A stretch of 64,000 nucleotides of DNA from Desulfobaculum xiamenense. Its GTDB lineage: Bacteria; Desulfobacterota; Desulfovibrionia; Desulfovibrionales; Desulfovibrionaceae. The position numbers and the translations under genes were made by a program. Where the stretch lies: NCBI RefSeq assembly GCF_011927665.1, contig NZ_JAATJA010000002.1, forward strand, positions 434,001 through 498,000. Direction: 5' to 3'. Below the pieces are notes generated by a model. The model was not told where the DNA came from. It saw only the letters and a program-made list of their open reading frames with translations, and searched no databases. Positions 35,136-42,548 of the stretch are shown here, piece after piece. Each line of letters begins with the position of its first letter. Position 1 is the stretch's first letter.

Positions 35136-36659
<1,524 letters not shown>

Positions 36660-36680: not shown

Positions 36681-36736
36681 TGCGAAATGTCGCGGTTAGT
36701 GCGAAATATCGCGATGGTCAAGCGCGAAATATCGCG
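36681..36736 (+). promoter_or_regulatory. Three operator-like repeats, probable activator binding sites
   Basis: The sequence GCGAAAT(A/G)TCGCG occurs three times, starting at 36682, 36701 and 36724. Each has CGCGA-type inverted arms around AATA. They lie about 50-105 bases upstream of the -24 element, the usual place for upstream activating sequences of sigma-54 activators, and just upstream of the divergent activator gene, so they could also mediate autoregulation. Confidence 0.7.
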
Positions 36737-36786: not shown

Positions 36787-36802
36787 TGGCACGTTTCCTG
36801 CC
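36787..36802 (+). promoter_or_regulatory. Sigma-54 (-24/-12) promoter of the respiratory operon
   Basis: TGGCACGTTTCCTGCC fits the sigma-54 consensus TGGCAC-N5-TTGC, with GG and GC ten bases apart and one mismatch in the -12 box. Transcription would begin near 36813, about 75 bases before the flavoprotein start. Confidence 0.8.
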
Positions 36803-36888
36803 AAGGACGGGGTGTCCGCCATGGGGTGGGCAAGGGCGTCGTCGAGGGACGATGCGAGCATTTCGCAAGCAAGGAGCTTTCTGCCGAT

Positions 36889-38475
36889 ATGAAGGAAACC
36901 GAAACGAACCGCACCGCAGGCCGGGGCGAGAAGCGCTCCCGCCGGGACGTGCTGCGCGCCGGGGCGATTCTGGCCGGCGGCCTTGCCGCGGGCATGCTGC
37001 AGGGCTGCGCGACGGGAAACGAGGACAAGGACCAGCCCGTGGAGAAATCCCGCACGCCGCTCGGCGCATGGGACAAGGAGTATGACGTCATCGTCGTCGG
37101 CAGCGGATTCGCCGGAATGGCCGCGGCCATTGAGGCCCGCAAGGCCGGGGCGGAGGTGCTGGTCGTCGAGAAGATGCCCGTGTACGGCGGCAACTCCGCC
37201 ATCAACGGCGGCGCGTTCGCCGTGGCCGGGTCCCCCCTTCAGGAGAAGGAGGGCGTGAAGGATTCCGTGGAACTCATGGTGCAGGACATGCTCAAGGCCG
37301 GTCGCGGCCTGAACCATATGGGCCTGTTGAAGATCGTGGCCGCCGGAACGCGCCCCGCCTATGAGTTCACCCTTGAGCATGGTGTCGAATACAAGCCGTT
37401 TTTGCAGCATTTTGGCGGTCACAGCGTGCCGCGCACGTTGCAGGCCACCATCAGCTCCGGCGCGGGCATCGTGCGTCCGCTGCGTGCCAGTGCCGCGCGC
37501 ATGGGCGTGGCCTTCCGCAACCGCTGCAAGCTCGAAGACTTCGTGCTCGACGAGGACGGTGGCGTGATGGGCATCGTGGTGCGTGACCGTTACGATTTCC
37601 CCAAGGAGAACTCCGGCGAACTGCGCCGTTTCCGCGCCCGCCGTGGCGTGGTCATGTGTTCCGGCGGGTTCTCGCAGGATCGCCGTTTTCGCATGATGCA
37701 GGACCCCAAGCTTGACGAGAAGGTGGATAGCACCAACCAGCCGGGCGCAACCGCCGAGGGCTTGCAGGCCATGTTCGCCGTGGGCGCTGCCCCGGTGCAG
37801 ATCAACCTGATCCAGCTCGGTCCGTGGTCGTCCCCGGATGAGGCCGGTTTCGGCATGGTCTCGCAGTTCAACACCATCGCGGGCTTTCCCAACGGCATCA
37901 TGGTCGACGTGCGCACCGGCAAGCGCTTCGTCAACGAGCTTGGCGACCGCAAGGAACGCGCCGAGGCCATCCTCGCCCGCAAGGACGAGCAGGGCAATCC
38001 GGTGTATCCTGTGGTCTTCTGCACCGCCGAGGGCGCAAGCCGCGCCCAGACGCTGGAGAAGTGTCTCGAATTCGGCGTGGCGTGGCAGTTCGACACCCTT
38101 GAGGCGCTGGCCGCGCATTTCGGCATGCCCGCCGCAGGCCTCGCCGAGGAAGTGGCCCTGTATGACGAGGGCGTGCGCACCGGAACGGACACCCGCTTCG
38201 GCAAGCCCATGGGCCGCGCCATTCCCCTTGGCAAGGGCCCCTATTACGCGGTGCGCTGCTGGCCCAAGGTCCACTACACCATGGGTGGCGTGGAGATCAG
38301 CACCGAGGCCGAGGTCATGCACATGCGCACGGGGCTGCCCATCGCCGGGCTGTACGCCGCAGGCGAGGTGACCGGCGGCCCGCACGGGGCGAGCCGTCTG
38401 GGCAGTTGCGCCGTGGCCGAGACGCTGGTCATCGGACGCATCGCCGGCCGCAACGCGGCCTTGCACAAGGCGTAG
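36889..38475 (+). CDS. Tat-exported flavoprotein of the fumarate/urocanate reductase type
   Basis: A 528-residue periplasmic flavoprotein. The N-terminus has a twin-arginine signal (KRSRRDVLRAG), a hydrophobic stretch and a possible lipobox (MLQGC). The FAD-binding motif VGSGFAGMAAA is near residue 70, followed by GGNSAINGGAFAVAG. VHYTMGG (near 461) and HGASRL (near 503) match the fumarate reductase residues that bind the substrate carboxylate. The region with the catalytic Arg in flavocytochrome c3 (HRPTGG) reads LQATISSG here, and the usual HPT is replaced by PWSSP, so fumarate is unlikely. I infer reduction of another enoate. There is no haem or FMN-binding domain; haem comes from the downstream genes. 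ATG 36889 is chosen for the Tat signal and the AAGGAG 12 bases upstream. Confidence 0.88.
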   Translation: MKETETNRTAGRGEKRSRRDVLRAGAILAGGLAAGMLQGCATGNEDKDQPVEKSRTPLGAWDKEYDVIVVGSGFAGMAAAIEARKAGAEVLVVEKMPVYGGNSAINGGAFAVAGSPLQEKEGVKDSVELMVQDMLKAGRGLNHMGLLKIVAAGTRPAYEFTLEHGVEYKPFLQHFGGHSVPRTLQATISSGAGIVRPLRASAARMGVAFRNRCKLEDFVLDEDGGVMGIVVRDRYDFPKENSGELRRFRARRGVVMCSGGFSQDRRFRMMQDPKLDEKVDSTNQPGATAEGLQAMFAVGAAPVQINLIQLGPWSSPDEAGFGMVSQFNTIAGFPNGIMVDVRTGKRFVNELGDRKERAEAILARKDEQGNPVYPVVFCTAEGASRAQTLEKCLEFGVAWQFDTLEALAAHFGMPAAGLAEEVALYDEGVRTGTDTRFGKPMGRAIPLGKGPYYAVRCWPKVHYTMGGVEISTEAEVMHMRTGLPIAGLYAAGEVTGGPHGASRLGSCAVAETLVIGRIAGRNAALHKA

Positions 38476-38588: not shown

Positions 38589-40277
38589 ATGAAATTCGCA
38601 ATTGCACGCCGACTCGCGGCAGGCCTTGTCTGCCTCGTCGCCATGCAGTGCCTGGCCTGTGTCGCATGGGCCGGTCAGAAGGTCGTGACCCTGAACGGTC
38701 AGGACCTCACCATCGAACAGGTTGTCGAGATCGCCGAGGGCCGCGCCGACGTCGCCATCGACCCCGCCGCCCTTGACCTGTGCGCCAAAAGCCACGAGCT
38801 GCTCATGGCCTTCGCGGCCGAGGGACGTCCCGTCTACGGCCTGACCGTGGGCGTGGGCCTCAACAAGGACAAGGCCATCTTCCACACCGCCGCCGACGGC
38901 CGCAAGACCCTGACCCCCGAGGTCATGGACCTGTCCCGCCAGTTCAACGTCAACGCCCTGCGCGCCCATAGCGCCGGTGTTGGCCCGGACATGGAGCCGG
39001 AGATGGTCCGCGCCACCATGGTCATCCGTCTGAACACTCTCTTGAGCGGCCGCACCGGCGCACAGGTCCACGTGGCCGAGCTGTACCGCGACTTCCTGAA
39101 CAAGGGCGTGACCCCCGTTGTTCCCTCCCGCGGCACAGTGGGCGAGTGCGACATTACGCTGGCCCCCCACATTGGACTGGTGATGATGGGCGAGTGGCAG
39201 GCCGACTACAAGGGCAAGCGCATCTCCGGCGCGGACGCCCTGAAGAAGGCCGGTCTCAAGCGCCTTGACGCCTTCGGCAAGGACGCTCTGTCCATCCTGA
39301 GCACCAACGCCCCGGCCATGGCCAAGACCGTCTTCGCCGTGTCCGACGCCGAGCGCTTCCTCTCCGTGGCCACCACGGTTTTCGGCCTGTCCCTCGAAGG
39401 TCTCAACGGCAACGTGGCCCCCTTCATCCAGCCGGTGAACGACGTGCGCCCCTTCACCTGCTTCGCCGCCGCCTCCAAGGCCGTGCGTGCCGAGCTTGAG
39501 GGCAGCTACCTGTGGACCCCCATGGACGGCCGTGCCCTGCAGGACCCGCTGTCCTACCGCACCACCACCTACACCCTCGGCGCGGCCATGGAGGCCCTTG
39601 CCGACGTGAAGACCAAGCTGGCCGTGCAGCTCAACTCCTCCGACGACAACCCCGCCGTCGTGGTGGACGTCGTGCCCGCCAAGGACACCCCGGCCCAGCT
39701 GGCCAAGTACTACCTCGACGCCGGATACGTGAAGGGCGCCATCTTCCCGACCTCCAACTTCGAGCCGCTGCCCGTGGTGCTCAAGGCCCAGAACCTGTCC
39801 GTGGCGTTGGCCCACGTGTCGCGCAACGCCGTCATGCGCACCCTGCGCCTGAGCGATCCGCACTTCACGCACCTCTCGCGCTTCCTTGCCGCTGACGACG
39901 TGGCCATCAACTTTGGCGCCATTGCCAAGCCCTACGTCTCCCTCGACGCCGACGTGCGCGAACTGGCCAACCCCGTGTCCATCGACACCGTTCCCGTGGC
40001 CGGAGACATCGAGGACACCGCCACCAACTCCATGCGCGTGGCCGACCGTCTGAGCCGCATCGTGGACAATCTCTACTACATCTACGGCCTCGAACTCTTC
40101 CACGCCGCACAGGCCGTGGACCTGCGCCAGCGCGACGCCGCCATCGAACTGGGCCACGGCACCGGCGAGATGTACAAGGCCTACCGCAAGGTCGTGTCCT
40201 TCGTTGACAAGGACCGTCCCTTCACCCCCGACATCGCGAAGTCCCACGACTTCCTGAAGGGCTACGCCATTCGGTAG
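38589..40277 (+). CDS. Exported aromatic amino acid ammonia-lyase family protein (HAL/PAL-like) with altered MIO motif
   Basis: A 562-residue protein with a Sec signal peptide ending in CVAWA-GQ, so it is probably periplasmic; classical HutH is cytoplasmic. The family fold shows in PVYGLTVGVG (Tyr83), the helix after GTVG, QDPLSYR (near 320), NSSDDNP (near 350) and TSNFEPLPV in place of GGNFHG. The Ala-Ser-Gly triad that cyclises to the MIO cofactor is replaced by Glu186-Cys187-Asp188 in GTVGECDITLAPH. GGAGG lies eight bases before the ATG. Between a reductase and cytochrome genes, it probably makes the enoate that the flavoprotein reduces (histidine to urocanate, or an aromatic amino acid to a cinnamate). 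With the altered triad, it could also be a different enzyme. Confidence 0.85.
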   Translation: MKFAIARRLAAGLVCLVAMQCLACVAWAGQKVVTLNGQDLTIEQVVEIAEGRADVAIDPAALDLCAKSHELLMAFAAEGRPVYGLTVGVGLNKDKAIFHTAADGRKTLTPEVMDLSRQFNVNALRAHSAGVGPDMEPEMVRATMVIRLNTLLSGRTGAQVHVAELYRDFLNKGVTPVVPSRGTVGECDITLAPHIGLVMMGEWQADYKGKRISGADALKKAGLKRLDAFGKDALSILSTNAPAMAKTVFAVSDAERFLSVATTVFGLSLEGLNGNVAPFIQPVNDVRPFTCFAAASKAVRAELEGSYLWTPMDGRALQDPLSYRTTTYTLGAAMEALADVKTKLAVQLNSSDDNPAVVVDVVPAKDTPAQLAKYYLDAGYVKGAIFPTSNFEPLPVVLKAQNLSVALAHVSRNAVMRTLRLSDPHFTHLSRFLAADDVAINFGAIAKPYVSLDADVRELANPVSIDTVPVAGDIEDTATNSMRVADRLSRIVDNLYYIYGLELFHAAQAVDLRQRDAAIELGHGTGEMYKAYRKVVSFVDKDRPFTPDIAKSHDFLKGYAIR

Positions 40278-40385: not shown

Positions 40386-40841
40386 ATGAAGAAGCACACA
40401 GCCGTGATGTGCGCCCTTGTGCTTGGCGCGTCGCTGTGCGGGTGGTTCGCCCCGTCCTTCGCGGCGGGAGAGCGCGCCGACGCGCCTCAGGCCGTGCACC
40501 AGCCGGGCCTTGGCGAACGCGCGCAGATTTGGATCGATACCCGCCTCGGTCGCAAGACCGTGAAGGACTACCACCGCAAGGTCCACCAGAACGGAACCAA
40601 CTGCGAACTGTGCCACGCGGCCAACAATCCCACCACCGCCCCCGATGACCGCAACTGCCTGAAGTGCCACGGAACGCGTGAGCAGGTGGCGCAACTGACG
40701 GCCAAGCTGGAACACAATCCGCACAATTCTCCGCACTACGGGACGGACGCCCCCTGCACCACCTGCCACAGGGAGCACGAGGAGTCGCGCGTGTACTGCA
40801 ACTCCTGCCATCCCTTCAAGTTCGAGAATTTCAAGAAATAG
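40386..40841 (+). CDS. Periplasmic tetrahaem cytochrome c
   Basis: A 151-residue protein with a signal peptide (cut after SFA) and four CXXCH motifs: CELCH, CLKCH, CTTCH and CNSCH. Size and spacing resemble the haem domain of Shewanella flavocytochrome c3 and small CctA-type tetrahaem proteins. Here the haem protein is separate from the flavoprotein. It probably carries electrons from the membrane cytochrome to the flavoprotein. The ATG follows an AGGAAA site; the next gene starts 48 bases after the stop. Confidence 0.92.
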   Translation: MKKHTAVMCALVLGASLCGWFAPSFAAGERADAPQAVHQPGLGERAQIWIDTRLGRKTVKDYHRKVHQNGTNCELCHAANNPTTAPDDRNCLKCHGTREQVAQLTAKLEHNPHNSPHYGTDAPCTTCHREHEESRVYCNSCHPFKFENFKK

Positions 40842-40889: not shown

Positions 40890-42548
40890 ATGCGCAGAAT
40901 AGCCGCGGGAGTGCTTTCGCTCCTTCTCTTCTGCCTCCTCGCCGCCGCCCCGCTGTCGGCAGCCACGCCGGTCCCGGCCGCGGAGGCCAACGCCGCGTGT
41001 CTGAAATGTCACGGCGATCCCGACCTCTCCGCGCGTACCGAGCGGGGGGCTGCGCTGGATCTCTACGTGCCCGCCGAGCGGCTGGCCAGAAGCACGCACC
41101 GCGGGCTGGCCTGCACGGACTGCCATGAAGGCGCCGGAACAACCGAGGACTTCGCGCACGCGCCGCACAAGCTTTCGGCCAGTGGCACGAAAGATTGCGC
41201 CGATTGTCATGCCCGTTACTTCGGCGACATCAGCGCCTCTTTCGCGGCGAGCCGCCATGTCGAGAAGCTTGGCGACAAGTTCTCTTGCTCGTCGTGCCAC
41301 GATGCGCACACCACCGAGGCGCGCAGCGCGACCCGTACGGACGCGGAGCAGGTCCGTTTCGACAACTACACCTGCCTGCGCTGTCACACGGATCTCTCCG
41401 GGTACAAGGCGCTTTCCGGACGCGAGGTCTGGGAGCAGAATCTGTCCCATGATTTCCTGCCCAACAAGGACAGGCATTTCGCCGCCGTGCGCTGCGTGGA
41501 GTGTCACACTCCCGTCGAAGGCACGGACGTGCATCGCATCCTGCCCAAGGACAAGTCCCTGCGCGACTGCACGGCCTGTCACCGTGCCGGTTCCGCCCTC
41601 GTGGCGCGTACCCGGACCGACATGGCCGATGACGACGTGGCAGGCATGTTCCTCGGCAAGGGCCTGTTCGATGACGAAACGCTTGTCGCGAAGCTGTTGG
41701 CCACCGAGTCCGGCCCGGCGGCGAAGCGCGCCGAGGTGGACGCCAACGGGTTCATCAACAGCGGCCTGTTCGCTGATTCCTACGTCATCGGCGCAACGCG
41801 AAATGTCATCATCGACGGATGGTCGCTGAAGCTCGGCCTCGCCGTGCTTGCGGGCGTGCTGCTGCATGGTTGCCTGCGTTTCGCCATGCGCCGCCGCCGC
41901 GCGGCCGGGCCCGAGCACAGCGAATACGTCTATGATCTGCACGTGCGCGTGTGGCATTGGATCAACGCCGCGCTGTTCGTCGTGCTCGTCGCCACCGGCT
42001 TCAGCATGCACTTCGCCGGACTGCCCGGAACCATCGGCTTCGCCGTGAGCGTGCATGCCCACGACATCGCGGGCTGGCTCCTTGTGGCCAACTACGGCGT
42101 TTTCGTGCTCATGGCGCTGGCCACGGGCAACATCCGCCAGTACATCCCGAATCCGCGCGGCATGATCGTGCGCTGGGCCGTGCAGGCGCGGTTCTACCTG
42201 TGGGGCATCTTCCGGGGCGAGGCGCATCCCTACCGCGTTACCCGTTCGCAGCGCTTCAACCCGTTGCAGCAGGCCGCATACCTGCCGATCATGTACCTCA
42301 TGATGCCGCTTCTGATCCTCTCCGGCGTGTGGATGTTCTTCCCAGAACTCACGCCCGAGACCGTGTTCGGCTACCCCGGCATGTGGCTGACCGCGTCGGT
42401 GCACAATATCCTTGCCGTGGGCTTCGCCATCTTCCTCGTGGCCCATGTCTACCTCAGCACCACCGGCGACAAGGTTCTCTCCCTCGTGAAGGGCATGTTT
42501 ACCGGCTACCACGTGACGCGCGAGCACCACGACACGGACGAGCGCTAG
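40890..42548 (+). CDS. Membrane quinol dehydrogenase: seven-haem cytochrome c domain fused to cytochrome b
   Basis: A 552-residue protein. A signal peptide is followed by a periplasmic domain with seven CXXCH motifs (CLKCH, CTDCH, CADCH, CSSCH, CLRCH, CVECH, CTACH) at about residues 35-235. After a linker come membrane helices of the cytochrome b561/Ni-hydrogenase cytochrome b kind with histidines in VRVWHWINAALF, VSVHAHDIAGW and HNILAVGFAIFLVAHVYL. This design can oxidise menaquinol in the membrane and pass electrons outward. It is the last gene of the operon, and a terminator follows. Confidence 0.9.
   Translation: MRRIAAGVLSLLLFCLLAAAPLSAATPVPAAEANAACLKCHGDPDLSARTERGAALDLYVPAERLARSTHRGLACTDCHEGAGTTEDFAHAPHKLSASGTKDCADCHARYFGDISASFAASRHVEKLGDKFSCSSCHDAHTTEARSATRTDAEQVRFDNYTCLRCHTDLSGYKALSGREVWEQNLSHDFLPNKDRHFAAVRCVECHTPVEGTDVHRILPKDKSLRDCTACHRAGSALVARTRTDMADDDVAGMFLGKGLFDDETLVAKLLATESGPAAKRAEVDANGFINSGLFADSYVIGATRNVIIDGWSLKLGLAVLAGVLLHGCLRFAMRRRRAAGPEHSEYVYDLHVRVWHWINAALFVVLVATGFSMHFAGLPGTIGFAVSVHAHDIAGWLLVANYGVFVLMALATGNIRQYIPNPRGMIVRWAVQARFYLWGIFRGEAHPYRVTRSQRFNPLQQAAYLPIMYLMMPLLILSGVWMFFPELTPETVFGYPGMWLTASVHNILAVGFAIFLVAHVYLSTTGDKVLSLVKGMFTGYHVTREHHDTDER

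Follow-up and report, generated by a model that had tools for sequence, protein, structure and literature searches.

An exported, MIO-free lyase of the ergothionase type in a putative respiratory operon of Desulfobaculum xiamenense

A plus-strand gene of Desulfobaculum xiamenense (38589..40277 of the window, by which we mean the whole 64,000-nucleotide stretch of DNA that was analysed) encodes a 562-residue lyase of the ergothionase type that lacks the Ala-Ser-Gly triad of histidine ammonia-lyases (HALs) and opens with a Sec-type signal peptide, MKFAIARRLAAGLVCLVAMQCLACVAWA (38589..38672, plus strand; judged by eye from the sequence). The protein is best explained as an exported ergothionase placed among respiratory genes and, judging from sequence, probably serves a periplasmic ergothioneine-respiration module under the control of a sigma-54 activator.

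At the position of the HAL triad, which gives rise to the MIO electrophile, the lyase reads GTVGECDITLAPH (residues 182-194; 39132..39170, plus strand), as located by translation and family alignment. A first-pass annotation of this DNA had placed Glu-Cys-Asp here instead of the triad, and the translation agrees with it exactly: the lyase has GTVGECDIT where histidine ammonia-lyases have GSVGASGDL and ergothionase has SSIGEGDIT. Relative to HAL one residue is deleted, G-A-S-G-D becoming G-E-C-D, so the aspartate of the apparent triad corresponds to the one that follows the MIO glycine in HAL. Sequencing error was considered and rejected, since a second genome of the genus (L002), with a lyase that is 74% identical and the same gene order, reads GSVGECDIT and so also has GECD. 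Local mutation was likewise discarded, as ergothionase and the whole sub-family are without Ala-Ser-Gly.

Profile and PDB sequence searches place the protein closer to ergothionase than to any HAL. Pfam Lyase_aromatic (PF00221) matches at 403 bits, and the NCBIfam hutH model scores 281 bits, far under its cut-off of 539. In a phmmer search of the PDB the top match is Treponema denticola ergothionase (6s7j/6s7q, 8.4e-96), followed as second-best protein by a probable HAL (8.3e-48), and identity is 40% to 6s7j as against 27% to two HALs. According to a 2026 paper (PMC13405746), ergothionase resembles HAL, PAL and TAL in structure but has no MIO, and it converts ergothioneine to trimethylamine and thiourocanate. 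Our own choice of candidate catalytic residues, Tyr83, Lys93 (in the NKDK motif; codon 38865..38867, plus strand), Lys447 (codon 39927..39929, plus strand) and Glu475, is identical in 6s7j, the two lysines being placed by the family alignment. Maurer et al. 2019 reportedly named four essential catalytic residues of ergothionase. The first pass had also described the other family sites as kept, which holds for Tyr83, His127, Gln318, Arg324, Phe391 and Glu475, all shared with two HAL controls, but not for the HAL Asn, here Ser238, or for the Tyr of HAL QDPY, here Leu321. Both controls have the triad, and the catalytic Asn of MIO ammonia-lyases (Asn194/195) is the residue replaced by Ser238; N194 is essential in Geobacillus HAL and the N194D variant of GkHAL is inactive (PMC11432326).

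These features extend across the family. A contig scan with a three-row alignment gave 113 relatives, the best 80 of which were aligned with the window lyase and that of L002 (82 rows); the scan patterns, GVG[LW]NKDK and Y[RK]DFLN[KY][GN], bias this set toward rows that bear NKDK. Ala-Ser-Gly occurs in none of the 82 rows, and the HAL controls L003 and L004 read GASGD. Residues 186-188 are EAD in 47 rows, EGD in 15, AAD in nine, and ECD, QGD and ESD in two each, with five singletons. Leu321 is found in 82/82 rows, Lys447 in 81/82 and Ser238 in 77/82, as is Lys93 in 82/82, a figure partly built in because NKDK was one of the two scan patterns; the two HAL controls differ at each of these positions. 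By a hydropathy rule, a signal-like N-terminus is present in 32 of the 82 rows, namely the window lyase, L040 (with a doubtful start) and 30 more.

On the tree, the rows of the ergothionase type, 88 in number, group in a single clade (SH-aLRT 100), and the window lyase falls in a sub-clade of 35 rows (support 98) in which, among the rows checked, only L070 is without a signal-like N-terminus; both trees were built by a quick method and contain some long branches. Members of the type turned up in Salidesulfovibrio, Enterobacterales, Sutterellaceae, Campylobacter, alphaproteobacteria and many Firmicutes, including some plasmid records, and database records from E. coli, S. meliloti and Polaromonas call them histidine or aromatic ammonia-lyases. 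Near some cytosolic ergothionase-type genes lie second lyase paralogues with GSVGYLSPEA or GSVGYLSLEA at the MIO site. These four triad-less paralogues (L058 7514-9052, L063 10568-12121, L069 593-2203 and L086 9170-10672) fall outside the 88-row clade, which implies that the triad was lost more than once, or earlier. S. meliloti pSymA carries a gene annotated hutH (L087 6965-8605) for a MIO-free exported lyase with GSVGQADMT and Ala447; it lies near an ABC transporter and a gene annotated as DMSP lyase, and has neither the thio-ring nor the urocanate-side context described below. A record titled Bacillus subtilis SK6B4 (L023) contains the Pseudochrobactrum lyase cluster in nearly the same form, and is probably contaminated or mislabelled.

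In the window the lyase is the second of four plus-strand genes. It is preceded by a Tat-exported, probably lipid-anchored flavoprotein reductase (36826..38475, likely start ATG 36889) and followed by an exported, c3-like tetrahaem cytochrome c (40386..40841; PF14537 4.6e-15, four CXXCH) and by a protein in which seven CXXCH haem sites are fused to a membrane cytochrome b561 (40890..42548; PF01292 5e-24, PF14522 1.8e-12), a proposed quinol dehydrogenase. L002 has flavoprotein, cytochrome c and cytochrome b with its lyase, as do nine of ten Enterobacterales loci (L008-L015, L062), the exception being Morganella L081, where no reductase accompanies the lyase in the stretch covered. In Sutterellaceae L016-L018, L020 and L032 a flavoprotein and a cytochrome c precede the lyase, although the cytochrome c of L018 and L020 drops out under a stricter score. 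The closest relative outside the genus, Salidesulfovibrio L007/L119, has no such reductase, with 1.7 kb downstream covered, and the genome taken as its own (G294) gave no flavoprotein match at 1e-20; in Acetomicrobium L019, too, the stretch covered holds a lyase and no reductase. The operon of Escherichia sp. L008 had no megablast match in a collection of 5,426 E. coli genomes. Homologues in this operon context with a normal Ala-Ser-Gly, which the first pass had thought would mark a local mutation or sequencing error, were looked for, and none beside such a flavoprotein has the triad.

The flavoprotein is a member of the fumarate/urocanate-reductase superfamily, with 254.6 bits to Pfam FAD_binding_2, 483.7 bits to TIGR01813 (cut-off 285) and PDB matches to FccA (1d4c, 4.8e-72) and UrdA (6t85, 7.3e-70). 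By eye, RSRRDVL...LQGC comprises a twin-arginine motif and then a lipobox. UrdA Arg411, His520 and Arg560 are kept, the roles of UrdA residues being taken from PMC7921117. Urocanate reductase is marked by Tyr373 with Asp388 (or Asn/Gln), and fumarate reductase by a substrate-binding His at UrdA position 373; the window flavoprotein has Gly at 373, Ala in place of Glu177, and at 388 either Gln or Thr depending on the alignment, owing to an insertion there. Its ring-side motif is IQLGPWSSPDExGFG, in a region that carries an insertion of four residues, and we propose that flavoproteins of this LGPW type are thiourocanate reductases. At 1e-20 the window flavoprotein finds 56 matches in a Parasutterella genome (G303) and 43 in one of Turicimonas (G306), a very large set of flavin reductases.

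In the proposed pathway the lyase would bind ergothioneine (2-thiohistidine trimethylbetaine) and split it by acid-base 1,2-elimination into trimethylamine and thiourocanate. MIO would be needless, since the quaternary trimethylammonium leaves readily as it is and the beta-carbon would be made more acidic with the help of the thioimidazole ring. The exported flavoprotein would then reduce thiourocanate to 2-thioimidazolyl-propionate with electrons that would pass from the quinone pool by way of the b561/seven-haem protein and the tetrahaem cytochrome c. The remainder of the host genome is consistent with reduction as the end of the path. At E 0.001 the D. xiamenense genome has a single match to the lyase family, the lyase itself, and so no normal HAL; neither a urocanase-family gene nor MttB, the trimethylamine methyltransferase, was found in it, each being found in some of 14 control genomes. 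Hydration of the enoate is therefore unlikely and trimethylamine is probably a waste product, which leaves reduction as the fate of the enoate. Gut anaerobes can use thiourocanate to grow and to synthesise ATP, as PMC13405746 states.

We infer the substrate from relatives and gene context. Many relatives of the lyase adjoin urocanase-like and DUF917/S-Me-THD genes, often together with a hydantoinase-like amidohydrolase and an M20 amidase (Pfam). A route through a hydantoin and a carbamoyl compound points to a ring substituted with S or O at C2, like that of ergothioneine; histidine breakdown instead uses imidazolonepropionase and formiminoglutamase. This context also fits the ergothioneine (Ert) pathway reported for Burkholderia sp. 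HME13. Such thio-ring loci occur both inside the window sub-clade (Pseudochrobactrum, Paracoccus L088, Burkholderia L090 and the signal-less L070) and outside it (Paenibacillus and Cohnella). By bracketing, then, the window lyase is predicted to act on ergothioneine.

The residue at position 447 follows these contexts. Contexts were called from phmmer matches to proteins of the window, L088 and L091 that lay no farther off than fixed distances. The 116 lyase rows comprise 65 that received a label, 50 without a called context (in some cases because the flank is short) and a normal HAL, the paralogue in L047 with GASGD. Removal of rows at least 97% identical reduced the 65 to 48, some loci being one gene taken twice (for example L118 and L031). 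Among the 48, Lys447 was found beside an LGPW flavoprotein in 22, thio-ring genes in 13 and a UrdA-like flavoprotein in one, and the remainder were Asp with the UrdA type (seven), Ile with hut genes (two) and Gln with a third flavoprotein class (three). Because the function of the LGPW reductase is itself a proposal, only the 13 thio-ring and nine urocanate-side rows bear on Lys447, which is present in 13/13 non-redundant lyases by thio-ring genes and 0/9 by urocanate-reductase or hut genes. Statistical proof that Lys447 tracks substrate was sought and given up, 44 rows yielding one independent pair on the starred branches and two on all branches. Lys447 and context each change twice on the tree, so the link to substrate is a pattern with too few changes for a test. 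In chemical terms, Lys447 would meet the sulphur, making it the proposed sulphur-recognising residue, and Asp447 would meet a plain imidazole. Two loci do not fall neatly into this scheme: in L041 the flavoprotein next to a Lys447 lyase has Tyr373 and Asn388, and in L078 a Lys447 lyase has a hutI-like gene 2.6 kb and a hutU-like gene 4.2 kb away.

The same comparison bears on an alternative that we regard as unlikely, namely that the lyase removes trimethylamine from hercynine (histidine betaine) and the flavoprotein reduces urocanate. UrdA, a urocanate reductase, belongs to the flavoprotein superfamily, and MIO-free relatives do lie by hut genes in E. coli and by UrdA-type flavoproteins in Sutterellaceae. 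In seven Sutterellaceae loci (L031, L113, L114, L115, L153, L155 and L158) an Asp447 lyase (GATED) lies less than 400 bases from a flavoprotein with the UrdA residues Glu177, Phe243, Tyr373 and Asp388; these pairs are predicted to convert hercynine to urocanate and then to imidazole propionate. In two E. coli loci (L091 6839-8509 and L092 6779-8449) an exported MIO-free lyase with GSIGAADIM and Ile447 replaces hutH in a hutU-hutI-hutG operon. These E. coli lyases lie close on the tree to the respiratory Sutterellaceae lyases, which indicates that substrate shifts do occur in the clade. The two E. coli and eight Sutterellaceae rows are nevertheless all without Lys447, which the window lyase keeps, and the window flavoprotein lacks UrdA Tyr373, Glu177 and Asp388. 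The set Glu177, Phe243 and Tyr373 is found in the adjoining flavoprotein of 8/8 Asp447 rows and 0/100 Lys447 rows, 47 of those 100 having no called context. As to E. coli more broadly, 142 of 5,426 complete genomes carry a distant lyase match, and the 20 rows listed are annotated as HAL/PAL/TAL family. PMC13405746 cites Wolff 1962, an old and doubted report that E. coli has ergothionase; the lyase of L091 and L092 may bear on it, or may be a hercynine or histidine lyase.

It is also doubtful that the window encodes a betaine lyase for some other aromatic or sulphur substrate with a matching enoate reductase, candidates being ergothioneine sulphonate, an ovothiol-type compound and tryptophan betaine. 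In favour of such a reading, Sutterellaceae (Parasutterella and Turicimonas) have a third lyase class with Gln447 and GSEGANDLS or GSQGVNDLN (L116 6063-7715; L117 6881-10500, two in tandem) beside a third class of LGPW flavoprotein, which makes it probable that the family acts on more than two substrates. Against this, the active-site residues of the window lyase are those found in ergothionase and in lyases that adjoin thio-ring genes.

Far less probable are the possibilities raised in the first pass, an ammonia-lyase in which Glu-Cys-Asp gives rise to MIO by a new route or in which the cysteine acts as catalyst. In their favour, the HAL-site Tyr, His, Gln, Arg and Glu are kept, but a residue is deleted at the site, Asn is replaced by Ser and Tyr by Leu in the rows counted above, and the solved relative ergothionase is described as MIO-free (PMC13405746). 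The Cys187 column contains Ala in 60 rows, Gly in 18, Ser in two and Cys in two, the cysteines being confined to the window genus, and a residue found in 2/82 rows is not catalytic. What stands of the first-pass reading is that the usual route to MIO is closed and that the enzyme works by some other mechanism; a trimethylamine lyase was not among the mechanisms it weighed, and since a MIO-free member of the HAL fold with a known reaction exists, the novel chemistry is not needed. Triad loss taken alone would suggest a non-catalytic relic of an ammonia-lyase, a very remote prospect given active-site residues conserved across phyla, an operon also present in a second species and an intact frame.

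For the favoured ergothioneine module, a likely regulator is encoded divergently upstream on the minus strand (35136..36659), a sigma-54 activator with PF00158 at 5.7e-71 and a weak GAF match (PF13185, 4.8e-4), relatives of which adjoin the flavoprotein gene in L113, L121 and L122; it would switch the operon on. Between the activator and flavoprotein genes are three copies of GCGAAATRTCGCG (36682..36736, plus strand), likely binding sites for the activator. Three copies were found against 0.01 expected, and none of 100 shuffles reached three. A pair of copies separated by 4-14 bases is unique to this place in the D. xiamenense genome. The same-genus genome G001 lacks the paired pattern, so either the site or its spacing must be different in that genome. 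A sigma-54-type -24/-12 promoter-like site, TGGCACGTTTCCTGC (36787..36801, plus strand), is the one match in the window; since 20 of 100 shuffles have at least one match, the site counts only for its place, and it is not among the matches to the stricter pattern TGGC-N7-TGCW.

Ergothioneine is a dietary, mushroom-derived antioxidant, and if the proposed module is right, more bacteria than has been supposed use this compound to drive respiration and release trimethylamine from it. By BLAST, the 2026 paper places ergothionase in few genera, with a caveat on divergent homologues (PMC13405746), and an open-access literature search, which did not extend to the closest papers, found no exported ergothionase-reductase operon. 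We tentatively suggest, as a possibility somewhat short of even, a family of cassettes for anaerobic respiration, each with an exported MIO-free betaine lyase and an enoate reductase, in which lyase position 447 would set specificity: Lys447 with the LGPW reductase for ergothioneine, Asp447 with the UrdA type for hercynine in gut Sutterellaceae, and Gln447 with the third reductase. Such matched cassettes, as proposed, would be a larger prize than the MIO question, and the hercynine branch, if true, would be a new route from a dietary betaine to imidazole propionate, which is raised in type 2 diabetes (PMC7921117).

Among known systems, T. denticola ergothionase (6s7j/6s7q) is the nearest, having the HAL fold without the triad (GEGDIT for GECDIT), 40% identity, NKDK, the later Lys and a Ser replacing the HAL Asn, but it groups with signal-less rows, whereas the window lyase has a signal peptide and a respiratory operon. 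HutH shares Pfam Lyase_aromatic and the Tyr, His, Gln, Arg and Glu, and differs in having Ala-Ser-Gly, one residue more, Asn and Tyr. The ergothioneine catabolic (Ert) cluster reported for Burkholderia sp. HME13 is resembled by the urocanase-like, DUF917, hydantoinase-like and M20 genes that adjoin relatives of the window lyase, but the window operon has none of these genes, and its product is predicted to be reduced rather than hydrated. UrdA and flavocytochrome c fumarate reductase have in common with the window flavoprotein the FAD domain, the catalytic Arg, the His and the carboxylate Arg, whereas the window flavoprotein has ring-side residues of its own and its haems are carried on separate proteins.
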